DNA of 64,000 nt from contig SIJG01000051.1 of NCBI GenBank assembly GCA_023374025.1, positions 684,845-748,844 of the forward strand, written 5' to 3'. Both the position numbers and the translations under genes were made by a program. Position 1 is the stretch's first letter. Every line of letters starts with the position of its first letter. Below the pieces are notes generated by a model, which saw only the letters and a program-made list of their open reading frames with translations, did no database searches and had not been told where the DNA came from. This document shows, piece after piece, positions 9,820 through 63,149 of the stretch. The DNA is from Heterodera schachtii. Its lineage: Eukaryota > Nematoda > Chromadorea > Rhabditida > Heteroderidae.

Positions 9820-10263
9820 CATGAGTTGGAGATGAATTACATTTTGTGGCTTTTTGGTAATTAAATAAAAAATATTAGGAACAAAGAGGATAATTATAAA
9901 GAAAAAATAAATTTACTAAATAAATCATAAATTAATTCTCATTAAAGTACCTTTATAAGAATTTTTTTTGATTTTTTAGAGCCAGATGCATGTATTAAAA
10001 TAAATTATCATTTTGCAATTTTATTATAATGAATTAAATCAAATTATTTACTAATTTAATTATTAAAAAGAAATAAAAATTCATAGAATAAATAAATAAT
10101 TTAGAACAAATGCCAAATACCAATTTTTAATTTTTGAAGAAGTAACTAATTCCGAACCGTCCCGTTGCCGCTTGTGGGCCAAGCCGCAACAAGTGGCGAC
10201 CTGGGCAGGGACAAAAACTTTGGTGGGTTTTTGGAGATTTGGTAGGGAAGGGGGAGTAAGACC

Positions 10264-10590
10264 CCACGGGTTTTTTGTAACCCGTGGCGCCTTGCGCGTC
10301 CGGTCCCTCGGGTTTTTTGTAACCCGAGGCGCCTCCTTTTCCGCGCTTTCCGGCCCCTTGGGTTTTTTGTAACCCAGGGCGCCAAATTCCGCGCCGCCTC
10401 CCGTTCCGCCGCGCCTCATCCCATTCCGCGCTTCCTCCCAATCGTCTGCTCCCATTCGCTCGCGCCCGTTCGGCCACTCGGGCTTTTCGTAAACCGAGTC
10501 GCCTCGTATTTGCGCCGGTGTGTTCCGCGCCCTCAGTACAGTACCTCGTGTTCCGCGCCTATAGCCCCTCAGGTTTTTCGTAACCGGAGG
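10264..10590 (+). repeat. Five hairpins with a conserved TTTTTTGTAA loop and compensatory stems
   Basis: Hairpins at 10264-10287 (CCACGGG/CCCGTGG), 10306-10329 (CCTCGGG/CCCGAGG), 10356-10379 (CCTTGGG/CCCAGGG), 10476-10499 (ACTCGG/CCGAGT) and 10567-10590 (CCTCAGG/CCGGAGG, one mismatch). The loop is TTTTTTGTAA in the first three and a close variant in the last two. Most are followed by a G-C-G-C-C or similar. The stem bases change in both arms together, so pairing is preserved while sequence drifts. Frames on the minus strand give repeated Y-K-K-P-type peptides, but these follow from the repeat and I do not call a gene. Confidence 0.7.
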
Positions 10591-10990
10591 AGCGCTAATC
10601 GTTCAGGGCAGAGAGCCCGCAACTCAAAGGGTGGCATTGGGCCGAACCCTCCAAACGTCAGTATGCCGAGCCAATTGAACAAGTGGCAAAACTGAACATG
10701 CGCAATTGAAGAAGCGCTAACTGAGAGGCGCAAAAAGCGGAGCAAGTTGAAGCGCTAATCATTCACGGCAGAGAGCCCGCAACTCAAAAGGTGGCATTGG
10801 GCCGAACCCTCCAAACGTCAGTATGCCGAGCCAATTGAACAAGCGGCAAAAATGAACATGCGCAATTGAAGAAGCGCTAACTGAGAGGCGCAAAAAGCGG
10901 AGCAAGTTGAAGCGCTATCATTCAGGGCAGAGAGCCTGCAACTCAAAGGGTGGCATTGGGCCGAACCCTCCAAACGTCAGTGTGCCGAGC
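10591..10990 (+). repeat. 160-bp tandem repeat, about 2.5 copies
   Basis: AGCGCTAATC starts at 10591 and 10751, and AGCGCTATCA at 10911, a period of exactly 160 bp. Each unit carries GGCAGAGAGCC, GGTGGCATTGGGCCGAACCC and GAGAGGCGCAAAAAGCGGAG. The third copy breaks off near 10990 into a shorter array. Copies differ at only a few positions. Confidence 0.9.
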
Positions 10991-11105
10991 CATTGAAGAA
11001 GCGCAAGCACAGGCGCAAGTTTGAGGCGACATTGAAGAAGCGCAAGCACAGGCGCACACATTGAAGAAGCGCAAGCACTGGCGCACACATTGAGGATGCG
11101 CAAAT
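10990..11105 (+). repeat. Short tandem array (GAAGAAGCGCAAGCACAGGCGCA units)
   Basis: About four imperfect units of 27-40 bp built on TTGAAGAAGCGCAAGCACAGG and GCGCACACATTGA. The array continues directly from the 160-bp repeat and shares its ATTGAAGAAGCGC element. Plus-strand frames give K-K-R-K-H-R-R repeats, interrupted by stops. Confidence 0.75.
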
Positions 11106-11159
11106 CGGAGGCACACATTTGAGGAAGTGCACAATGAGGACGTGCAAATTGGAGAGGCG

Positions 11160-11612
11160 CAAATGAGAAGAAGCGCCAAGGGAGACGCATTTGGAAAAAG
11201 CCAAGAGCAAAGAGCCCGAAGTGGACGAGAGAAAGTCGGAAGAATAAGCGCAACCGCTACTGCGAGACAAAGCGGCCAGCAAGAAGTGCCAAAAGTCTGC
11301 CGAGGATGCAGACACCACAAAAGCGTTGGTCATTCCGCTGGGAATGTCGCAGCTCAGCGAGCTGCGACTGTCCGATGATCGGACATTTTGAACGAAATGA
11401 GCAAAGAGTGGAATGGGGCACAAAAAGGGCAACAAACGAATAAATCGCAAAAGCAAAAAGGACGTGCAACGAATGAATGCGCTGATTAATGGGCACGCAA
11501 ATGGGCCAAATGGAGTGAGAAACCGGCGGCAACACTCGTCTGCGCAAATGTCACCCGATGGAACGGCAAAAAGAGTCCAATTCAGCCAACGACAACTCAA
11601 GGAGTGCATGTG
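11160..11612 (+). pseudogene. Degraded basic reading frame in the GC-rich island
   Basis: One plus frame reads a charged sequence (E-K-A-K-S-K-E-P-E-V-D-E-R-K) through about 11612 with three in-frame stops. It includes K-A-L-V-I-P-L-G-M-S-Q-L-S-E-L-R-L near 11325 and an open stretch from 11413 (G-H-K-K-G-N-K-R-I-N-R-K-S-K-K) of about 66 codons. The minus strand also has an open frame of 216 codons (10977-11627), rich in C, F, L and S, as expected for the complement of a K/R/A/E-rich frame. Neither strand gives a family I recognise. Broken gene or repeat-derived frame. Confidence 0.25.
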
Positions 11613-11944
11613 AAGAACCGGCCGCAACAGCGATGCCCAATGAACAGAAGGAAGAAAAACCCCGAATGATCACCCCATTGCTTATTAATTTGTTATTGTG
11701 TGTAGCCCCACCATTTTCGATCGTATTTAAGCCCCGTAAATTGTTCATTTCAGTGGCTCCGATCGTACACCGAATAAAGAGAACAAAAACCCAGCAATTG
11801 GGTATTCGGTAGCCCCTCCCCCTCTCCTTCCTCTCCTACCCCCACCCCGAACCATGGACGACGAACCGTCCCGTTGCGGCTTGTGGGCCAAGCCGCAACA
11901 ATGGTCAATTTTTTGGAAAACAATTCGTTGTAAATAATGAAATA

Positions 11945-12550
11945 GGCACAAAATGCCATAAAAATTACCTAAATAGGCTCAGAATTACCTTTTAATATTT
12001 AAATCAATTATTGATTATCTCTTTAAAAAAACCAATGTTTGTGTGTATATTTTCAAAAAAAATTTAATTTTTTCAAAAGAAACCTTGATAAATTCTCAAA
12101 AATTATTAAAAATTAAAAAAATATGTACGAAAAAATGCGAAAAAGTCCAAAAAAACATTGAAATTGAATATCGAAAATACGAACGAAAAAATTAAAGATA
12201 TTATCGGGATTAACATTGCAATGGTAATTTTGATCATTTGGTGAGCAGTGTTAATCTTGATTATGACATTGTAGCCCGATGTGAACAAGCAAAAGTCCAT
12301 TGTTGTGAAAAATAAAATAATTTTTACCTCACTTTTTCAAATTTTTCGTACATATTTATTCTTTTTTACATATTTTGGAATTTTGGAGAATTTATAAAAA
12401 AAATTTTAAGAAAAATTTTAAAAGTTTTCTGATAATGTCCCCTAAAAAAAATATTTTTATTCCAAAAATCAGATATTAAAAATTAATCCTTAAAATACTA
12501 AAAAATGATTCTAAGCCTATTTTGGCTCTTTTTATGGCATTTTGTGATTA
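11945..12550. mobile_element. Inverted-repeat element (MITE-like), about 600 bp
   Basis: The left end, GGCACAAAATGCCATAAAAA then TTACCTAAATAGGCTCAGAATTAC (11946-11990), is an imperfect reverse complement of 12500-12545, which reads GATTCTAAGCCTATTTTGGC and GGCATTTTGTG. A target-site duplication is not clear. The interior is AT-rich and holds a chance hydrophobic frame on the minus strand. A run of TTTACATATTTT repeats (about 12600-12715) follows the right end. Confidence 0.55.
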
Positions 12551-27770: not shown

Positions 27771-29848
27771 AATTATTTATATTTTATTTTTCATAAATGT
27801 TTTCGGGATTTTTCCCCTTGGCAATAATATTTGACTCTAATGACAAAGAATAAATTACAAATAAACTGAAAAATAAGCCGTCAATTTTAAAAAATAGAAT
27901 TAATTATATAATCTTTATAAAATATTAATATTTCAAATAAATAATATCGATATTTGTTATTTTTTACAAATTAAGAATTAAGAATTAATTAAAAATTACC
28001 TGAGAATTTTTTCGAAAAAAATGGATGTTTATTTATTAAAATTTTTTAACCATTTTTTTTAATTTAAAAAGTAAAGCAATGAAAATAAAAATATATAACA
28101 ATAATTAAAAATTCATTAGAAAGACACAAATATACATTTTAATGATATTATTCTATTATTAAACATATTCAATTCAAAAATAATAAAAAATAAATACATA
28201 AATTTTTCGATTATTTATTTTAATTGGTTAATTACGAATGCAAACAGATAAAAAGATTATTAGTAAACTTAATTAAACATTAATGTAACAAATGTGCTTT
28301 TTATCATAAATAGGGCTGTCATTATTTTGGAATTTTTTGCTTAATGTGCCTATTTTCAGGATTTTTTGAAAAATCCTTAAAAAACGCAAATAAAATGAAA
28401 ATAACCCCTAATAAATGACGCTAAAATTTCAGAAAATAGATCCCTAAGAATGTAAACATTTTCCCAAAAATTGATTCCCTAATTTTTTTTATTTTATTTA
28501 AAAACTGTCCTTGTTCGCAAAATTTAAAATATAAATAATTTCATTTATGATTGAAACATAACAAAAATAATTTTTTCTTGATTAAGGTTTTTAGCTTTAC
28601 ATCAAAAAGAATGTAATGATTGATATATCTACCAAATTATTAAAAATATTAATCTACCGAATGAAGCAAAATTTTAAATATCAAAATAATTTATAAAAAT
28701 TAAAAAAAAAGAATAATAATTCTATTTAAAAGAATAATTTTTTTAAAACTAAGAGATAAGTTAATACATTTATTATTAAAAAGAAAAAATTTGAAAACCA
28801 TTGAAAAATTGTTATTGAAAATTAATAATATTTCGATAAAATAAAAATTAAAAGTCGATAAAAATATAAAAATAGCGGGCTTAAAGGAAAAGTATTATTG
28901 TTTAATGAAAAGCATTTGGTAAAAATAGGTTAAAAACATAATTTTTAAAAATAATAATAAAATAAAATATGGAAGAGATAATTTTAAAACATATGTTTAA
29001 AAGTTTATTAAAGAATTACTATAATAATTAAATTAAAATTACGAAACATTTGAAAAATAAAAAATAACATAAAATTTAAATTTCGGTAGTCACCAGAGTT
29101 TTTGCAAATCAACTAAAATTACAAAAAAAAAAGAAGTCATTTTGCACTTCAACATTTAGAGACAATGAAGATAACACTTATATTGACCAATTCAGACTAT
29201 GAAATATTTAAGAAACTAATTCTAATTTATGTGATTAATTTCTTTATTATCAAAAGTAATACTCTTTAAAAAATAATTTTTCAGAAAAAGTATTGATGAA
29301 AAACTGGGAAAATTTACATCTTAATTAAGAAAAATGAAATAAATTTCTTCAGATAACCTAATGCTGAAACAAAAAATTAAATCAAAAAAAAATAAAATAA
29401 AAATTCATAAATTAAATTTTAAAAAAGTTGGATACATTTGAAATGCATTATGGAATTTTTAACGATTGTTTTGAGTATGAATAATTAATTTAATTTTAAT
29501 TATACAAATAAAATAATTGAATGATTTTCATAATTTTTGCAACCAAAATAATTTAATGACAAAATACAATCAAATTTGACAAACAAAATTTGAAAAAAGA
29601 TTTTCAATTTCATTTAAATCTTTGAATTTTTAATCATAAATTATTCTGTTTTTACATATTTTTGTCCTGATTTTGGCTTTCAATCAAAGCCTTTTAATTT
29701 ATTAATAAGTAATGATTAGCGTATGAGAAAGCATTTCCTAAATTAATTTTAAATTTGCTATCAAATGAGAATAATAAAATTCATATTTTTATTCTTAACT
29801 TTTTAATTATAAAAATATTAAAAATGAAATGTTCAAAAATTTATTGTA
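27771..29848. other. AT-rich desert with one MITE end
   Basis: No gene. TAGGGCTGTCATTATTTTGG at 28312 closely matches the right terminal repeat of the element at 30064-30467 (reverse complement TAGGGCTGTCATTTATCTGG). It is probably a degraded relative; its other end was not found. Confidence 0.5.
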
Positions 29849-30582
29849 ATGTCAAATGAATATAAGCAAAAAGGAAGAAAATATTCGACAAAAGAATGGC
29901 AAAAATTTATGACAAAATGTGTAAGAAAATTGGAGTTAACAATTATGAAATGGAAAAAGCAATTTGAAATTCGTTGCCAAAAATTAACTGAGGAAGAAAA
30001 GATGGAAAAACTGAAAATTTACTGGCAAATAAAAAAAGAAAATTCTAAAATAAGTAATATTTAGGGCTGTAAAAATATGGATATAATATCGCAAAATACC
30101 GTAAATCCGCTATTTGAATGCCCGGGCATTCTATTGTTAAACCCCTCCAAAAAAGGGCATTTAATTGGAGGGGGCATTCTACCAGAGAGGCGCACTGTAT
30201 TGTTCAACCCCTCAAATCTCGGAAATTTTTTTGAGGGTCAAAAAGGGGTGAAAACCATTTTTCTAACCGGTTTTATAGTGCAGAGCATGAATATGAGTAT
30301 TATTTTACGTTTTACAAATTTTTGAATTTTTAAAAAATTTCGAAAATTTTTCATTTTGGCCCTCGGGAATTTGGACTCGTATTTGAAAATTCATAACTCA
30401 TTTCAAAGTGGGTCAAATAGGTGAACAGTCCAGGAAAAAATATGGATTTCCAGATAAATGACAGCCCTAGTGATAAGGAAATTGCCAAAATATTGAAAGT
30501 TCATTTTCAGAAAATTTCCGATTGGAAGAATCAATTTGGAGAAGAAATGTTTCGAACAACATCAGAAGAAATAGAACAGTGA
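29849..30582 (+). pseudogene. W-K-x-x-F helical module gene, split by a MITE
   Basis: Part 1 (29849-30064) reads K-Q-K-G-R-K-Y-S-T-K-E-W, then a helix with M-K-W-K-K-Q-F-E, then E-E-E-K-M-E-K-L-K-I-Y-W-Q. Part 2 (30469-30582) resumes with S-D-K-E-I-A-K-I-L and I-S-D-W-K-N-Q-F-G-E-E, ending at TGA. Between them lies a 404-bp inverted-repeat element. The modules resemble the helix-turn-helix-like pattern K-I-A-K-x-L ... I-x-x-W-K-x-x-F-G, one per about 50 residues. The open frame begins right after a stop with no signal peptide, so the 5' end may be missing. Related modules lie on the other strand at 30800-31604. Function unknown; the DNA-binding-like look is inference only. Confidence 0.5.
30064..30467. 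mobile_element. 404-bp inverted-repeat element (MITE), TA target
   Basis: Starts GGGCTGTAAAAATATGG, ends CAGATAAATGACAGCCC, and is flanked on both sides by TA (30062-30063, 30468-30469). The first G of the element together with the duplicated TA makes the TAG that ends the upstream coding part. The terminal inverted match is short (GGGCTGT plus a shared ATATGGAT-type block). The interior has GC-richer stretches (GAATGCCCGGGCATTC at 30117, an imperfect palindrome; repeated CCCCTCCAA/TTGGAGGGGG). The open frame at 30077-30325 is element sequence, not a gene. Confidence 0.7.
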
Positions 30583-30707: not shown

Positions 30708-31604
30708 TCAATTATTGTATTGTTCGATTAATTTCACGGAAAACATCATAATAATTTGTTCGCCAATAAAAGGATGTGGTAAATTGTCCATGTAAAATAG
30801 GACGACAAAAAATGAGGGAAAATGCACTTTTAATGAGGTTAAATGGCCCAATAAAACTGAAATCCTCTGTTGGTAAATTTTCAACATTTCATCACTCATT
30901 TTCGGATTTTCTTTATTTTATTTCCCTGTAAATTTTATTTTGGCCTTCTAAAATTGAAAATTTTATTCTCCAAATTTGTTTTCCATCTCCTAATGTTCTG
31001 TGCCGAAATATTCATCATTTAAGAAATTTTCATATCAATTATTTTGAATTTCTTTTTTATTGCCAATAAATTTTAATTTTTTCAAATTTTTCTTTTTCGG
31101 TAAAAAATTTACTCATTCCAAAATTTCTTTTCCATCTTTTAATGGTGAATTTGTTAACTCCGTTTCTCTTGCAAATTTCGGTATAATTTTGCTGCCATTT
31201 CTTTTCTTGAATATTTTCTTTTTTGTTTATATACATTTTTCATTGTAATAATTTTTTTACAATTTCAAATTTTTCTTCTTTTTTTTTAAATTTATAGCTT
31301 TGTTGAATTTTCTGATTAAGCCCTAATTTTTTGAATTTCTAAATTTGTTTCGATTTGTCACCAATTTTTTTGCTATTTTACTTTCAATTTTATTCCATTC
31401 TTTTGTTGAATATTTTCTTCCTTTTTGCTTAATTTTTTCTTTTATTTTATAAAATTTTCTAATTATTTCCCGTTTCTTCTGTTCATTTTGCGCTTTTTCT
31501 TCCCATTTTTCTCCAAATATTTCTTCAAATAAATTTTGTTGTAGTTTTTTATTTTGTGACTTAATTGGACTAATTAGAGCAATTATAATTAAAAGCATTT
31601 GCAT
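30708..31604 (-). pseudogene. Secreted-type W-K-x-x-F module gene, frameshifted
   Basis: ATG at 31604 opens 93 codons. A signal-peptide-like start M-Q-M-L-L-I-I-I-A-L-I-S-P-I-K-S is followed by a glutamine/lysine/glutamate-rich helical region, K-R-E-I-I-R-K-F-Y-K-I-K, then K-Q-K-G-R-K-Y-S-T-K-E-W-N. That last block is shared with the plus-strand gene at 29849. The frame closes at 31323, but homology continues in other frames: K-Q-K-R-K-Y-S-R-K-E at 31243-31154 in one frame, and a 59-codon frame at 31236-31057 with F-T-I-K-R-W-K-R-N-F-G and F-E-K-I-K-I-Y-W-Q. Further on, near 30975, N-I-R-R-W-K-T-N marks yet another module. So at least three consecutive modules survive with frameshifts and stops: a decaying gene, or one with indel errors. 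Confidence 0.55.
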
Positions 31605-32074
31605 ATTTTTGAGAGCCCTATTAATTTATAATTTAAAAAAATATATTAATCGCCCTTTTGATTTAATAGGGTGAGAAAAGAAATATTTTTAATTCCTTTT
31701 TAAAATCAATTAATCCACCTACATAAAGTATATTCATTAATTTAAAGGTTCTCTTGACTTATACGATGTTTTTTTCTCGTGGACCAATCTCGACGAATAT
31801 GGTATTTTTGAGGGATTGGCAGCGATTTCCAATTTGAGTTGACAATTTCAATTTATTTAAATCATGTACAGTAGTAATAAGACATTCGTAACATATACAG
31901 TAGTAGATTTTCGTAAAAAAAATTATTAAAATGTCTATTTCATAAGCTTTTTTCAGATATAACAGTATCATTGCATTTTTAAAGTACCATCCTCTCCGCC
32001 CTCAGTTCGTCAAATAAACCATCGGAATGCTTTGAGCTCGGAGGCTTTTCTAACAGCATACTAATAAAGATTGG

Positions 32075-34073: not shown

Positions 34074-35372
34074 TTAATTACCCTCATCTGTTTGGAGAAA
34101 CAATCGGTCGAAAGCAGTCTTGAAGAAACGAGCGTTGTCTTTTAGCCATTTTCCATATTTCTTTTGTTTATTTTTTTCACTGTGTTCACCTTTGTGCTTC
34201 TGTTGTCCCTTACTGGCCTTTTTTGGTGTGACGAACTCAATGAGTTTTTTGGTACCAGATTCAATGCCAATTTTCAAAAAGGCATTTAGTGCCGAAAAAC
34301 CGTTCATTGCGAGTCGCCAATGGGACATCTCTTTTGTGCTGAAGATGGCAACTTGATGCCAATTAATGCCCAAATGTTTCGTCATCAGCTTGGATACCTT
34401 TTCTAAATTACATTTCACCCCTTCCTCCGATGGAATTCCCGTCTTTTTGAATTGGCTTAAATTTTCCACTAGTTGGCCAATCATGTGCTTCATCTCTTCA
34501 ATTAAAGACTGATGTTTTTTGTGCGCTTCTTCACCCATGCTTTGTTTCGAAGATGCTTCCTCTTTTCCCAATTTCTCAACCATTTCTTTTACATTTAATC
34601 GGTTCAAAAATTTTTCAATTATTTTTTTTGCTTTCTCTTTCTTTTGCTCATCACTGCCAAATTTTACGCATTCCTCCAACAATTTTTCATATTATTTCGT
34701 CGACTCTAAATTCGAATCAGCCATCAAAATTTCCAACTCATATTTAACGCTTTGTTCACTTGAAATTGATGACGACACTTTTCCACTTTTATTCTTCTCA
34801 TTTTTTGGCATTTTTTCGTTCGTCTCTGCAATTTTAATTATCAAATCCTTTTTCATCTGCAATACTTCTTTCGCATTTTCTCCCTCTTTCTCTGGGGAAA
34901 TTTTCAAATTTTCCTCCAAATACATCAAATTTTCATAATCTCCCGCTGAAAATTGCGTCATTGGCAGCATTTTAATAGTCACTTCAATAATGGCAATCTC
35001 TTTTAATTGGTTTAAAACATGTTCTTCCACCGTCCCGTCTCCTTCGTTTGCCTCCTGATTATTAGAATATAACTTATGCTTTTTTAGGATTTTTTGTGTT
35101 AAACTATAAAATAATTATTTATTACATACAAATATACTAAAATTTCAAATTATTTAAAATTAGGATGGACTTAATAAAATTTTTGCTTAAACTCAAACTT
35201 CGTTTTTGTTATATGAGTCTCTAATCATGAACTAATTAATTACCTTCTTAATTGAGTCGATTATTTTGTTCTTAATTTTTGTGATTTGAGTGTTCAATTG
35301 CAGTAAATCTGGAGTCAATTGCGAGGGCGGTTGTTGAGCATTGAGCAAGATTAATCAATTTGAACCCAGCAT
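34074..35372 (-). pseudogene. Lysine-rich helical secreted-type protein gene with two in-frame stops
   Basis: Exon 1 (35372-35244) starts M-L-G-S-N, meets TGA at 35357-35355, and then stays open: L-I-L-L-N-A-Q-Q-P-P-S-Q-L, then an I-T-K-I-K-N-K-I-I-D helix, ending at AAG|GTAATT. Exon 2 runs to 34074. A CAT-AAG start at 35078 keeps phase but has a poor acceptor (CCTAAAAAAG); the better-looking acceptor at 35104 (TTTTATAG) would shift the frame. Exon 2 is open for about 335 codons except for one TAA at 34694-34692 (E-S-T-K-stop-Y-E-K-L-L). It contains charged helices (E-N-L-K-I-S-P-E-K-E-G-E-N), then K-T-G-I-P-S-E-E-G-V-K, L-G-I-N-W-H-Q-V-A-I-F, M-S-H-W-R-L-A-M-N-G-F-S, and a basic tail. The intact continuity around both stops suggests recent inactivation or sequencing error. 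The product may be secreted (hydrophobic start); no family recognised. Confidence 0.6.
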
Positions 35373-39570: not shown

Positions 39571-39815
39571 GTGCGACATTTGAGGACCTGACTTTTGAGG
39601 ACCCGACATTTGAGGAACCGACTTTTGAGGACCCGACATTTGAGGAACCGACTTTTGAGGACCCGACATTTGAGGAACCGACTTTTGAGGACCCGACATT
39701 TGAGGAACCGACTTTTGAGGACCCGACATTTGAGGAACCGACTTTTGAGGACCCGACAATTGAGGATTTGACTTTTGAGGACCCGACAATTGAGGATTTT
39801 CCCGACATTTGAGGA
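39571..39815 (+). repeat. 30-bp tandem array (CCCGACATTTGAGG / ACCGACTTTTGAGG)
   Basis: About eight units of 30 bp, each made of two related 15-mers: ACCCGACATTTGAGG and AACCGACTTTTGAGG. The core CCCGACATTTGxGG is the same as in the arms of the fold-back element at the window start. Because 30 is a multiple of three and no stop falls in the unit, all three minus frames stay open (S-S-N-V-G-S-S-K-V-G and relatives). These are not called genes. Confidence 0.9.
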
Positions 39816-57300: not shown

Positions 57301-59827
57301 GCTCACCCAAAGTATACAAGACACGAAATGTCCACACTTGTAAAAAGCCACTGAATTATAAAGAAATTTTTAAAGCTTATAAACGATGAAAATGAAGCCA
57401 AGCAATTAAAAAATGGCAATAATTTTAAAAGAATAAATAATAATATTAAATTAAAATAATGATTCAATTAAAATAAATCAAAACCATAAATCTTTGCTAT
57501 GAAGGACTGATCTAATCTTTTCTAATGGTTTTAAGAGGAAACTGTGCTTTTATGAATGAACATCTATGTATGTTTGAGAAAATTTAATTATTATTATTTA
57601 TTTTTTGGTCTATAAGAACATTAATTATCAAAATAATTTGATTTTTTCATAATAATGTACACATATAAAATTCATAAATAGATCGAATTTATAAGATAAA
57701 TGTACTAAAAATCTTGAAGCCTTTTTGCTTTGTGGTTAAACTATTATTACATTTATTGCCTTTTTATTTTTTGAATTTTGATTAATTTATTCAGAAAAGC
57801 ATTTTAATATTTTTATTCGTTGTTATTTGCTGTTATTTTATTTTTGTGTGTTTTATTTCGATTTATTCACATGATCAGTAGGACAGATTTTGAGTAGCCG
57901 GATTAGCACTTGGGAAAAATAAAAAATAATTTTAATTTGCTTAGATTTTTTATCATGTGGTGTTCTGAATTTATATTTTATCAATTTAATTATGAAAATT
58001 AACAAACTTTTTTTAATATAAAATTAATAACGGAAAAATAGACAGTACTTCTCAAAAAATCTTATTATGTTTTTAATTAGTTCTAACAAAATTATTTATG
58101 ATAAAAAAGAAATAATAAAAATAAAAGCACATAAAATTATTATTATGAAACTAATAATAAATTTTTTTAAGCAAAAAAACAAGTATAAAAAAGTTTTTTG
58201 ACTATATGGCATAAGGCAAAAATTGAAATAAAGAATGAAAAATAAATTTGGATTAATAAAATCTTAACATATATTTATTGCTTAAAAAATAATTTTAAAT
58301 CAATAAAACAAAATTATCATTCGGGATGGGATTTTTATTGACCAAAATCCCAAAATAATTAATAAACTAATAATTTTATAGATTATAATAATCAATTAAA
58401 CCTTATATTTTATTTAATATAAAGGCTAAGTCCATCACAATTAATATTCTCTCGCCTTCTTGTACAATTTGCCATTTTTTGAACAAAAAAATATAAATTT
58501 TAGCGTATAAAATCTTTTTTTTAACATTAAAACAAAAATAAGAATTTTCTGAATAGGCAAAAAAATGATTACATTTACATTTTTTCAACAATAAATTATC
58601 GAAAACTTATAAACTAGCCGTTGATTTGTAGTTTTAAGTTTTTTGGGGAATTTGTCTGGTGAGAAATATTTAAATATTTAAATTTGGAAACTTTTCATTT
58701 AATTGCCATTAGTTGTTTTGACTTTTATCAACAAAAAAAATACGTCCAAAATATTAATTATTTAATTTTGTAAAATTTATCATGATGAGACGATGATTTA
58801 AAGGAATTCAAAAAGTAAAAATGAAATTGATAAAAATAATCCAAATTAAATATTTTTTGAATTTGTTCAATTTTAATGAATATTTAATAATCATTAAATT
58901 TATAAATTTAATTAGAAAAAATTTGCCAGAAAACATATTTTGTAGCGTATTTTGCGCATAGAAAATTTATAGGTTTTATAACCTTTTGATTAGCAAAAAT
59001 AAAATTTTAAATAAAAGATTGAGTATGCAGGTTGCAGCCTCAATATTGATTATTTTAAATTGGTAAATAAAGATAATCACCTTCACCTTATTTGCTTAAT
59101 AGGCCATATAATTCATTATGAACAGCAAATCAATTAATGCGGAAAAAAACAATGCTGTTGACAACCAAATTAATTTTGAATAATTCAATATACATAAATT
59201 GGACAAACTAAAAATTTCGAATGAATTTCCATAAATTAATTGTAATTGATATAATTTCATTTAAATACTGTCAAAAAAATATTGTTAAGAAAAAAACTAA
59301 TGAAAAAAATTATTCATGTCAATTAATGAAACAGAATATAACAAAGGAATGCCTATTTAAAATAAGCTAATTTAATTGCTGCTGACTCCAATCTAAATTT
59401 ATAAGATATAAAAAGCACTTTAATAAATGAATAAGAATAAAATATATAAATTTTTCATATCGAAATTGAAGACAAAAATGTTCATTTTAATTATATAATC
59501 ATTATTATAAATAATCAAACCAAAAATTCTGTTAAACGACGCACTCATAGCCGAAGGGATGAATGCAAAAGTTATGTGCTGAGAATAATATGGGACTTTA
59601 AACAAAAACCTATTAAAATAATGAAATAACAAATATAAACAATACAAAGATCGACTAATAGGCATGAAAACAAATTTTCTTTTATCATTAAATAAACTTA
59701 CAATTTTTTACTGAGTTTCAAAAAATTTAGACAAAAATAGAGACAAAAATACTGAGTCTAATTTAAAATAAGTTTTTAATGATGGAGCTTTTTGTCTTGG
59801 TCTTTTGTGATGTGATTTATATTATAG
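54346..59827. other. AT-rich desert with a possible terminal exon at 57299
   Basis: No complete gene. At 57299-57339 a 41-nt islet lies between TTTTTCAG and CACTT|GTAAAA and reads V-L-T-Q-S-I-Q-D-T-K-C-P-H-L, then stop if not spliced. Upstream, TTTCTTTAATAG leads to M-N-S-N-F-D-P-E-F-I-N (about 57145-57177). A GC-richer patch at 55840-55890 has GGCGGGTCCGCTTGGACAG followed by GTAAAT. These could be exons of a long-intron gene but cannot be linked. Confidence 0.5.
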
Positions 59828-62104
59828 TTCACTACAAAATGGCGCCTCTGTCGGCTACTGGATTTGTCCCTGCGCGAGGCCCCAGAATCCTCGACTCCGA
59901 CAGGGATACGTGCTGCCGCGTCTCCTGAACGTGCTGTCCGTCCGTCAGCGTCCGAAGTTGAAGTTCCCGCCGACATAAATTTGTCAATCTTTAAGAAGCC
60001 AATTCATGTGAAAGATAATCGTTCAACAGATCTAAAAAAAAATATTTAGGGACGAGACTTCGAAGCAGATTGCCTGGGCATGAACTTTGTCTGCATATTC
60101 ATTCGCAAAAAACGACGAGTGGAGGTGAAACTCCGGCGACTAATCACGGATATGTCGCAATACGCACACTTCGCAAAGTCTAATTAGATCACTCCCGCGG
60201 AACCGGTGTGGAGGTCAATCCTTTGGTGGAGGTAGCCGCGGGGGTAATTATTTTGAATTATTTTAATTAATAATCACTATTATATGGCAAAAATTGCCAG
60301 TTTTTATTGGGTTAAATTTCTAATTTCAGCAGAATGAAGTGAATGAATTGGTGGTGGCAGCCGTTGGGCAGAATGTAAGTAATTTAAAAGGATTTAATCA
60401 ATTAATACTAAAAAATGTTTTAAATGTTCAAAAATCATTTTAGCAAGAAAAGGATTTAATAATTGAATTATTCTTATTGTAATATGGATTTATTCATATT
60501 CTTAATGTTTTTCAGGTCATTGATGAAGTGGTAGTGGCGGCTGTATACCTGCAAGATCACGTAAAAATAAAACTGACAATTTTTAATATTTAAATTAATA
60601 AAATGAAGTTTTTTATATTTTTTAACAAAAACTAATAATATTAATAAAAATAATTTTTAAAACTAATGCAATTTTGAGACTAATGGGACGGAAGAGAAAA
60701 CGGAATATGTGAATAAACCGGCCAACTGTGATTGTCTAAATTGGTATAACAATTGAGGTTCCTGATCAGTCGACCATCAGCAGTATTGGCGACACATTCC
60801 GATATTGGGTTACAGATTTAATTTTATTAATCACATATCACATATTGATTGGATCAATAGGAATGATAAAAAGTATTATAACAAAGTCACATTAAAAAAG
60901 AAAATTTCAACCTTTAAAATTCATTTTTTTATTATTTAGGACCCTCGTGACGGTTTGGCGTCAGCCGCGCAACAGCATAACTTTTCAATTGATCAATAAG
61001 AATTTGAGAAATAGAATTATTTTGAAGAAATTTTAAATTTTAAATAGATTAATTTAATTAATTGATTATTAAATATTAATGAGTTTCTTAAGCAGGAAGT
61101 GAATGAAGCGGCAGCTATCCAACAGCATGACGTAAAAATTAATTAGACTATTTTAATTAATAAAGAAGTTTTTTATATTTAACACCAATTGAAAAATTGG
61201 GCAGAATTTAGTTAGTTAAAAAATGCTCTTAAATGTTCCAAAATCATTTTAACAGCAAAATGAATTAGTGGCGGTAGCCGCGGGGGTAATTACTTTGAAT
61301 TATTTTTTAATAATCACTATTATCTGGCAAAAATTGGCAGTTAATGATAATATATTAATTTCAAAGCATTTAATTAAGAGAATAATCCATTCTTTTCAAA
61401 GGTTTGGACATCAAAGTTACAGAAACGGTCCCAGCGACCGCAAATGTTTATCGCCAGCAACCCACCACGCAACTCAAATTAATTAATATTAGAAATTAAT
61501 TGTTGAATGAAGGGAAGAGGAAGCGGAACAAAGAAAGGAAGGGAATAGGAAGGGGAAGAGGAACAGAAAAAGGCGGGGAAGGACGACAGAAAAAGGAAGG
61601 GAAGAGGAAGGGGAAGAGGAACAGAAAGAGGAAGGGAAGAGGAAGGGGAAGAGGAACAGACAAAGGAAGGGAAGAGGAAGAGGAAGGGGAAGAGGAACAG
61701 ATAAATGAAGGGAAGAGGAAGGGGAACAGGGGAACAGAAAAAGGAAAGGAAGAGGAAGGGGAAGATAAACAGAAAAAGGAAGGAAAGATTACTGACTTGT
61801 TTTAACTATGAATTTGCTAAATAATAATTAATCTTTTTTTGTTAGTTCATAGAGGAAGTGGTGGCGGCAGACAACCAATAGCTAAACGTCCACACAAACT
61901 CATTTTTCTCATTTTACTTATTAAAAACATAATTTATTTATTTTTCAGGTCATTGATGAATCGGTGACGGTAGTCGACCCGCAGGAAGTAATTAATTTAA
62001 ACAATATTTTTAATAAGTTTATTGAATGAATGAATTTGCTCGCGGCTGCACAGGAACAGCCGCCTATCATGAATACAACGCTTTTATTTTATTTACCGTG
62101 TTGA
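59828..62104 (+). CDS. Small-exon array gene (repeated V-V-A-A exons), possibly broken
   Basis: Exon 1 starts after TTATATTATAG (59828). It reads W-R-L-C-R-L-L-D-L-S-L-R-E-A-P-E-S-S, then A-S-P-E-R-A-V-R-P-S, and hits TAG at 60047 after a run of nine A; one more A would continue the frame (L-G-T-R-L-R-S-R-L-P-G-H) to a TAA at 60181. Then come small exons: to 60243 (V-N-P-L-V-E-V-A-A-G), 60330-60374 (N-E-L-V-V-A-A-V-G), 60516-60560 (V-I-D-E-V-V-V-A-A-V), 60941-60982, 61096-61131, 61256-61285 (E-L-V-A-V-A-A-G), 61846 (F-I-E-E-V-V-A-A-D, then a stop), 61949-61987 (V-I-D-E-S-V-T-V-V-D) and 62054-62104 (terminal, ends L-P-C). Sizes 45, 45, 42, 36, 30, 39 and 51 nt keep phase 0. Most have TTTCAG/TTTAG acceptors and GTAA donors; 60982 has lost its donor. 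Family unknown. Confidence 0.55.
60679..60895 (+). CDS. Additional coding-like stretches between small exons
   Basis: 60679-60743 follows TTTTGAG and reads T-N-G-T-E-E-K-T-E-Y-V-N-K-P-A-N-C-D-C-L-N, ending before TTG|GTATAAC. At 60758 a second frame opens for 45 codons to 60895: V-P-D-Q-S-T-I-S-S-I-G-D-T-F-R-Y-W, followed by a hydrophobic L-I-L-L-I-T-Y-H-I-L-I-G-S-I-G segment. The two frames differ, and only 14 nt separate them, so a one-base indel or alternative exons are possible. They probably belong to the small-exon locus. Confidence 0.3.
61502..61797 (+). repeat. Polypurine tandem repeat (GAAGGGAAGAGGAAGGGGAA)
   Basis: About 295 nt almost without pyrimidines apart from scattered C in AACAGA. 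It is built from units of about 35-36 nt with GAAGGGAAGAGG, AAGGGGAAGAGG and AACAGAxAAAG. The frame from 61500 to 61805 stays open (K-R-K-G-K-R-N-R-K-R-K and E-E-E-G-E-D), and another frame reads E-E-E-G-E-E-E-Q repeats. It may be a repetitive exon of the small-exon gene or only a minisatellite. Mirror-repeat polypurine tracts can form triplex DNA. Confidence 0.75.
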
Positions 62105-63149
62105 CGTAATTGCCATACAAAATTTGTAAAATACTTGACCTCATAAATTCAACAAAAATACAAATTATTTTTATTGTATTTCAAAACTTTTATATTCGAT
62201 AAAAAACTGAAAAAGGTCTTCATCATTTGTAGTATCTCCATAATTTCTAAAATGTGATATAATATCATTATAAAACAAAAAATCAGCTCAGTTCAACAGT
62301 TTAGAAATTAATAAGAATTTTCAAATTTTGAGTAATTCCTTAAAATGTGATAAATGTTCGTCCAGTAAATTAAATTCACAATTATTTTTTGTTGTAGGGA
62401 CATAAAATCCACTAATTAGGACTAGTATACAAAAAATCAGTTCAGTTCAACAGCTTTGAGAAATTAATACGAAAAAGCAATTTGGCCATTTGCAACTGAA
62501 CTGAAATATGCAAGTTTGGGAGAATTTTTTAAACGTTTATAAATTCGTACGAATTTTTTAAGTGGTTGAACTGGTCTGAATCTTTATCACAAATTCAAAT
62601 ATAGTTTTTTTAATTAATATGATTAATTAAACAACTTACTGATCACTTCTCAGGAATTCATTCACTTCTGCTGCTGATCAGTGATCGCTTGGCCAGGAGT
62701 TGTGTAAAGAAGTCTAAAAAAGAAATAAAATAAATTCAGAATTTTTAAATAAGCATTCATTCTCTGACTCATCCACAATGTCTCAGTAAGATCGTATTTA
62801 TATAGGATACATGTTTAAATCCGATTCCGAAATTTTTTGTTCAAACTTCGGGTATATAGTCTCGCAATTTGTTTTCACGATTTAAAAAATAAGATGCCAA
62901 AATTATTGTAACGAGAATATTAAACTGTGCTACCTTTTTAAATTTGGCCACCCCAATCAAAAATTGGAATTGTGCCAAGAAATTGAAAAATTACAAACCC
63001 TCGCCGTGCTCGTCCGTGTCACTAGATCAAGCGAAATAAATAAATGAAAAGTAAAATTGTGTGATTTCTTTCAATCCGACATAAAAGATTAATGATGTAA
63101 TGCATAAACTTATTCGTATTTTTAAGGAATTTAATACTATATTAACATA
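62105..63149. other. Mostly non-coding stretch
   Basis: No gene seen. AAAAAATCAGTTCAGTTCAA-type text is repeated (62278-62300 and 62433-62460), hinting at a local duplication. A short GATCACT...TGATCAGTGATC inverted match lies at 62641-62687. Confidence 0.5.

Follow-up and report, generated by a model that had tools for sequence, protein, structure and literature searches.

An array of duplicated, phase-0 exon-like islets in Heterodera schachtii as a candidate partly decayed copy of a small micro-exon gene family

The window analysed here, 64,000 nt of the Heterodera schachtii contig C51 (SIJG01000051.1; C51:684845-748844), carries ten GC-rich islets on the forward strand at window positions 60214-62104. 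Their pooled GC content is 51%, while eight of the nine gaps between them have 15-27% GC and the remaining one, which holds a purine repeat, has 41%; the gaps measure 66-379 nt. All ten islets can be read in phase 0 directly 3' of an AG, and six of them (A, B, C, E, F, and I, of 30, 45, 45, 36, 30, and 39 nt, respectively) end at a GTAA donor. An in-frame stop ends PQ, H, and T, and islet D has neither donor nor stop. The islets were delimited by hand, PQ, H, and T being bounded by their stop and the 3' end of D being taken from its copy at a second site on the same contig (stretch L009, C51:1.0656-1.0667 Mb), and divisibility by three is therefore informative only for A, B, C, E, F, and I, which have both AG and GT. 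The initial annotation had described an in-frame array of seven or more islets, which was borne out with ten islets. The features are as follows, with counterparts at L009 and on contigs C234 and C61:

59828..60222, strand not given: GC-rich block adjoining the array and unrelated to it; the part homologous to L009 begins at 60223
60214..60243, +: islet A, 30 nt, VNPLVEVAAG, a further copy of islet F with a doubtful acceptor
60330..60374, +: micro-exon B, 45 nt, phase 0/0, QNEVNELVVAAVGQN; counterpart B2 at L009 5989-6033, retaining acceptor and donor
60516..60560, +: micro-exon C, 45 nt, phase 0/0, VIDEVVVAAVYLQDH; in its L009 counterpart C2, 3 nt are missing and the donor is GC
60940..60981, +: micro-exon D, 42 nt in the L009 register, DPRDGLASAAQQHN; without donor in the window, with GT donor at L009
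61096..61131, +: micro-exon E, 36 nt, phase 0/0, EVNEAAAIQQHD; L009 counterpart with a 42-nt insertion
61256..61285, +: micro-exon F, 30 nt, phase 0/0, QNELVAVAAG; counterpart F2 at L009
61402..61482, +: PQ segment, 81 nt including stop, VWTSKLQKRSQRPQMFIASNPPRNSN then stop; related segments at L009 and C234
61509..61788, +: purine-rich minisatellite between PQ and H, dispersed genome-wide and not array-specific
61846..61881, +: islet H, FIEEVVAADNQ then stop; acceptor present, in-frame TAG in place of a donor; resembles L3 of C234 (FIGEVVASANPQN)
61949..61987, +: micro-exon I, 39 nt, phase 0/0, VIDESVTVVDPQE; C234 counterpart I3 not immediately preceded by AG
62054..62104, +: terminal exon T, EQPPIMNTTLLFYLPC then stop; frame-shifted relative to C234 and C61

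At its 5' side the array is cut by unrelated sequence at about 60222/60223. Window 60223-60302 matches L009 6230-6153 (the F2 region) at 94%, and as this homology begins only at 60223 the acceptor of islet A is doubtful; its AG sits in GC-rich, pyrimidine-poor sequence (0.40 of the last 20 nt). The array had initially been drawn from 59828 onwards; the islets at 60214-62104 belong to it and the GC-rich block at 59828-60222 lies outside. An open frame in this block (59828-60046) has weak protein-level relatives on C175 (E 2.9e-4) and C1 (E 0.0014), with weaker ones on C160, C264, and C92, and by this comparison it is a separate small family abutting the array.

The occurrence of such islets was compared with chance by scanning for GC-rich islets of 27-57 nt between AG and GTA, whatever the remainder modulo three. 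In 60200-61490 five of six donors were open and in phase 0 (B, C at two donors, E, and F) and in 61790-62100 the only donor was (I), with none on the antisense strand in either interval. When 60200-61490 was shuffled 500 times with dinucleotides preserved, open phase-0 donors averaged 0.088 and never exceeded 2. The suggestion of tiny phase-0/0 exons is supported. The C234 stretch gave six open phase-0 donors out of nine (shuffled mean 0.21, maximum 3; antisense 0) and the L009 stretch three out of six (antisense 0), and the first 59.8 kb of the window gave 3/11 on the forward and 5/15 on the reverse strand. A hand tally of 21 islets flanked by two splice sites, which omitted A, D, H, I3, and the terminal exons, counted 18 multiples of three, a figure that is biased as many of the islets came from a scan demanding divisibility by three. 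Some islets depart from the rule, such as P (41 nt) and N (55 nt) of C234 and E of L009 (35 nt).

Related exons were found at four further loci, the second site on C51 (L009), C234 (stretch L011), C61 (L036), and C1, the first three by DNA searches of the whole genome (178.5 Mb, 356 contigs), in which C234 and C61 showed partial copies, and C1 by a motif pattern search; the genome-wide search for more module copies proposed earlier was thus productive. L009 holds D2 (42 nt), F2 (30 nt), B2 (45 nt), and C2 (42 nt, GC donor), and its E region, with the 42-nt insertion, does not keep the frame at its first donor (35 nt). Its counterpart of V, read by hand, runs into an in-frame stop at full length, but a 51-nt version after AG stays open. 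On C234 six open phase-0 exons have GT donors (O 33, V 75, R 54, L 39, J 51, and K 42 nt), M (M3; 36 nt, phase 0, open) has a GC donor, and the terminal exon reads EQQLIMNTTQFILFTVLMYLPYKIIKHLTS before its stop. C61 carries R (54 nt), a short intron-like gap, and then an in-frame terminal exon, EVGEQPPIMNTTKFILFTVLTYLTYKLLNI, and a hydrophobic tail is common to the C234 and C61 ends. On C1 a 30-nt exon encoding ENEDLAAAAG is flanked by both splice sites; beside it lies a 970-bp inverted repeat (L070 3191-4149 and 4529-5496, 98.6% identical) with long poly-G/poly-C tracts. Similarity between the window and C234 ends near 63019, on the side of an AT-hook-like motif (GKRGRPP) that is found in a hand-read open frame at L011 about 1750-1500, on the strand opposite the array.

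Within the reach of these searches, the modules occur in few copies, at five loci. The motif pattern matched 16 times, and its reversed control 4 times; four of the matches lie in known array loci (three on C51, one on C234), two led to C1, those on contigs C2 (two), C12, C19, C42 (two), and C139 look like ordinary coding sequence or chance, and the other three are on C75, C150, and C165. A sequence model (R1) was built from 20 training exons, on which its scores follow from its construction, and gave 26 matches. Those outside the training set are L009 6355-6397, 6400-6454, and 5730-5795 (E 3e-6 to 6e-5), L011 3466-3513 (E 0.022), window 62018-62061 (E 0.67), and window 60223-60252 (E 4.7), and the window outside 60223-62061 gave none at E<=10. 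C11, C18, and C203 share short stretches of DNA (45-69 nt) with the window array; these fall on sequence of the inter-islet gaps, and R1 found no exon in the fetched surroundings (L040-L042). It had been proposed that identical islets in unrelated repeats would count against the array, and this applies at most faintly: a 35-nt stretch similar but not identical to exon B (83-89%) occurs in a dispersed repeat at C75:241892, C150:174648, and C165:180269 (L065, L067, and L068). These segments are 95-99% identical to each other, carry HELVAKAVGQK, and are without a clear acceptor; the stretch may reflect exon capture or chance.

The islets have been copied together with their introns. The sequence of islet F is present twice in the window, as A and F, and intron flanks are shared between different exons, C2 of L009 and I3 of C234 being 78% identical over 120 positions and B2 of L009 and M3 of C234 78% identical over 97 positions that extend into the introns. 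As the flanks were duplicated too, exon-plus-intron units were copied, in agreement with the mutual duplication suspected at the outset. The exon orders F-B-C-D-E-F in the window and D-E-F-B-C at L009 are permutations of each other and fit a tandem unit of about 1 kb, as would be expected had such an exon-plus-intron unit been copied in tandem and then undergone unequal exchange. An origin of the array from the purine minisatellite was rejected, as this repeat (GGAAGAGGAACAG-like) is dispersed on many contigs and lies here only between PQ and H. One whole-genome DNA search gave 170 matches, nearly all of them on this repeat, and among the matches listed all but four fall on it. A purine-only strand cannot hold stop codons, so the long open frames of the minisatellite mean little.

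Judged from its sequence the window copy is probably no longer fully functional, being cut near 60223 and damaged at D, H, and T. As T is frame-shifted relative to C234 and C61 the hydrophobic tail is not read and T ends early, whereas the loss of the D donor would merely lead to skipping of D, the modules being symmetric. We regard a functional product from the window copy as unlikely; C234 and C61 may or may not give one.

Comparison of paired copies gives a measure of constraint. In B, C, F, I, and R there were 26 substitutions in 210 exon positions vs. 56 in 699 positions of the surrounding gaps (Fisher p 0.056, exons faster), and a single gap event in the exons, of 3 nt and in frame, vs. 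18 in the introns (p 0.093); neither test is significant. D and E were set aside from this comparison (7/78 substitutions, 2 gap events), and an alternative count with 45-nt flanks, including D and excluding E, gave 32/250 substitutions in exons vs. 53/492 in flanks. The pairs of equal length (B, F, I, and R) differ by 16 non-synonymous vs. 6 synonymous codon changes, D adds 9 non-synonymous and 0 synonymous ones, and C was left out as its copies differ in length. Three of the 14 splice sites of the seven paired exons (B, C, D, E, F, I, and R) have changed, i.e., the C donor, the D donor, and the I acceptor, which is near the intronic rate of change. Among 12 distinct exons the variability at first, second, and third codon positions was 0.354, 0.328, and 0.432, and a third-position excess as large was reached in 211 of 2000 column permutations; with third positions only slightly more variable, the codon-level sign of coding selection is weak. 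Exons and splice sites thus change at roughly the pace of introns, as relaxed or absent constraint would predict. A coding origin is supported by the structure, whereas present-day constraint on the compared copies is not supported by these counts.

A test for an upstream signal-peptide exon had been proposed. A crude scan, requiring an ATG, a hydrophobic run, and a phase-0 donor, found no such first exon on the sense strand in the 3 kb preceding the arrays of the window, L009, and C234; the same scan gave one match on the opposite strand at C234 and none in two control stretches. Sequence comparison of the loci found no 5' exon common to them, and a start codon was not placed. A hydrophobic open frame from 59782 (MELFVLVFCDVIYII...) is closed after 48 codons by a stop within the GC-rich block, and the crude scan gave it no phase-0 donor. 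A 128-residue model of seven C234 exons yielded 16 word-sharing candidates but none at E<=10 in a protein search, and a 63-residue C234 segment had no homologue, both in a database that may be without nematode gene sets; as a positive control a COX1 fragment retrieved 270 proteins at E<=0.001. Nine window ORFs gave no Pfam match above cut-off and the window gave no Rfam match at gathering score. The dorsal-gland "DOG box" is the hexamer ATGCCA, and its absence from either strand of 59000-60330 is uninformative. The genome has 27 matches to the pectate-lyase family PF03211 at E<=0.001, and 245 matches with at most one mismatch to the nematode spliced leader SL1 (reversed control 0), both of which point to a plant-parasitic nematode.

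The islets, their frame, their splice consensus, their duplication with introns, and their presence at five loci are direct observations; from this structure we infer a gene, and with it the transcription and splicing of any copy and the effect of splice-site loss. It is probable, in our judgement, that this plant-parasitic nematode has a small, lineage-specific family of micro-exon genes whose coding region was built from copied exon-plus-intron units, and that the copy in the window has partly decayed. Each unit would contribute a symmetric phase 0/0 micro-exon, mostly of 30-54 nt, encoding a module rich in Ala and Val whose approximate pattern is (E/N)-x-V-(A/V)-A-A-x-x-x-Q, and in an intact member splicing would string the modules together ahead of a terminal exon with a hydrophobic tail. 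As every module starts in phase 0 and has a length divisible by three, their gain, loss, or skipping would leave the frame open, so that a splice-site mutation would drop one module and the protein would survive. D, with its lost donor, and C2 and M3, with GC donors, may be natural cases of such module removal.

The same symmetry would be expected of a live family resembling the micro-exon genes (MEGs) of schistosomes, in which alternative inclusion of micro-exons generates many secreted or surface variants and the amino-acid change reflects selection for diversity. The excess of substitutions in exons and of non-synonymous changes, the in-frame 3-nt event as the only one in the exons of B, C, F, I, and R, and the hydrophobic C-terminal exon kept at C234 and C61 would all be consistent with this, but we find it doubtful. 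GC-rich exons in an AT-rich genome may mutate faster, so that the exon excess is no evidence for positive selection; neither Fisher test is significant, D and E add two exon gap events, splice sites have changed at near the intronic rate, and the crude scan gave no signal-peptide-like first exon. For the window copy in particular, which according to the initial annotation could, if expressed, make many secreted or surface variants, the missing 5' side, the lost D donor, the shifted last exon, and the intron-like divergence leave such an output unsupported.

Exon substitution that is not below the intron level would equally be seen if all five loci were dead relics of a once functional micro-exon family drifting neutrally. 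C2, D, E2, H, I3, and T have each changed in a splice site or in frame, and the L009 counterpart of V is stopped at full length, though its 51-nt version is open. We nevertheless consider it unlikely that every locus is dead, as six exons of C234 still have AG, GT, and an open frame, C61 keeps R followed by an in-frame terminal exon, and exon lengths are in frame in the five compared pairs, a small number. Highly improbable is a non-coding origin, in which GC-rich islets of a low-copy tandem repeat would resemble exons only outwardly: the copies did duplicate together with their introns, the codon-position signal is weak, and a purine minisatellite lies within the array, but open phase-0 frames with AG and GT are confined to one strand where 0.09 would be expected, and they are kept at C234 too.

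The partly decayed family copy that we favour can be compared with systems in other parasites and plant feeders. Schistosome MEGs have, in the available part of one account, many very short exons, mostly multiples of three, that encode tiny peptide modules and are hard for gene predictors; they have an N-terminal signal peptide, mostly 15-nt exons, and introns of up to about 5 kb, with 100-500 bp near the ends (PMC10526429). As far as that part goes, the short multiple-of-three exons are a likeness, with six AG/GT islets of 30-45 nt in the window. In contrast, the gaps here are 66-379 nt rather than up to about 5 kb, so that the long-intron feature is absent, the islets measure 30-81 nt, the exons are clear copies of each other, and a signal peptide was not found by the crude scan; the phylum is different and the comparison is one of architecture. 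Membership of the MEGs is not claimed, given the short introns and the signal peptide not found. The bicycle genes of aphids are, in the accessible text, a plant-feeder family with on average ~17 exons, many of them small and internal, almost all in phase 2, and with high divergence (PMC9168663). On that description they share with the array a plant-feeding host, small exons of uniform phase, and high divergence, but their phase 2, against phase 0 here, rules out identity. The KQY/KHI cassette effectors of the pea aphid are described, in the excerpt available, as small families arising from miniature exons by duplication, with splice isoforms and a conserved signal-peptide region, and are present in salivary-gland proteomes (PMC7495047). 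Miniature exons and duplication are alike within that description, whereas a signal-peptide region was not found here by locus comparison and crude scan. The HYP effectors of potato cyst nematodes have, according to part of the source, near-duplicate short motifs in variable number and order, in a variable domain that one exon encodes and whose variation is genomic and not due to splicing (PMC11228951). A plant-parasitic nematode and short near-duplicate peptide motifs are common to both on this partial account, but here the modules sit in separate islets with intron-like spacers, and the YERGGG motifs are by eye unlike the V-A-A modules; identity was ruled out by exon structure. Among the matches listed in literature searches on nematode micro-exons, exon duplication, and exon skipping, no title or abstract opening contained such a gene, subscription papers being mostly outside the scope.

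It is tempting to speculate, though with little confidence, that plant-parasitic nematodes possess an independent MEG-like or bicycle-like system, i.e., a low-copy family of tandemly copied symmetric micro-exons with a conserved hydrophobic tail that are gained, lost, and spliced in varying sets to give fast-changing modular proteins, with C234 and C61 live and the window recently rearranged. Were any member expressed, a nematode would provide an example of micro-exons duplicated in series, and parasites and sap-feeders would seem to have converged on a micro-exon architecture. If the copies are relics, their pairs still show the fate of symmetric exons as splice sites decay, and the array marks a gene class that is likely missed by standard predictors.

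Elsewhere in the window three arrays of similar-looking 15-16 bp repeats (e.g., ACCCGACATTTAGGGA and CGACATTTGAGGACC) lie at 4-170, 909-1048, and 39574-39815, and at 10001-12000 an island of 50% GC that contains a tandem repeat of 160 bp stands in surroundings of about 20% GC. Two abutting ORFs of 205 and 140 aa at 34077-35114 on the reverse strand, with no Pfam match above cut-off, could be a lineage-specific gene. A KGRKYSTKEW segment occurs in ORFs at 29828-30061 (+) and 31326-31625 (-), and a similar sequence, read by hand, adjoins the second array copy at L009 about 8060-7800 (-).
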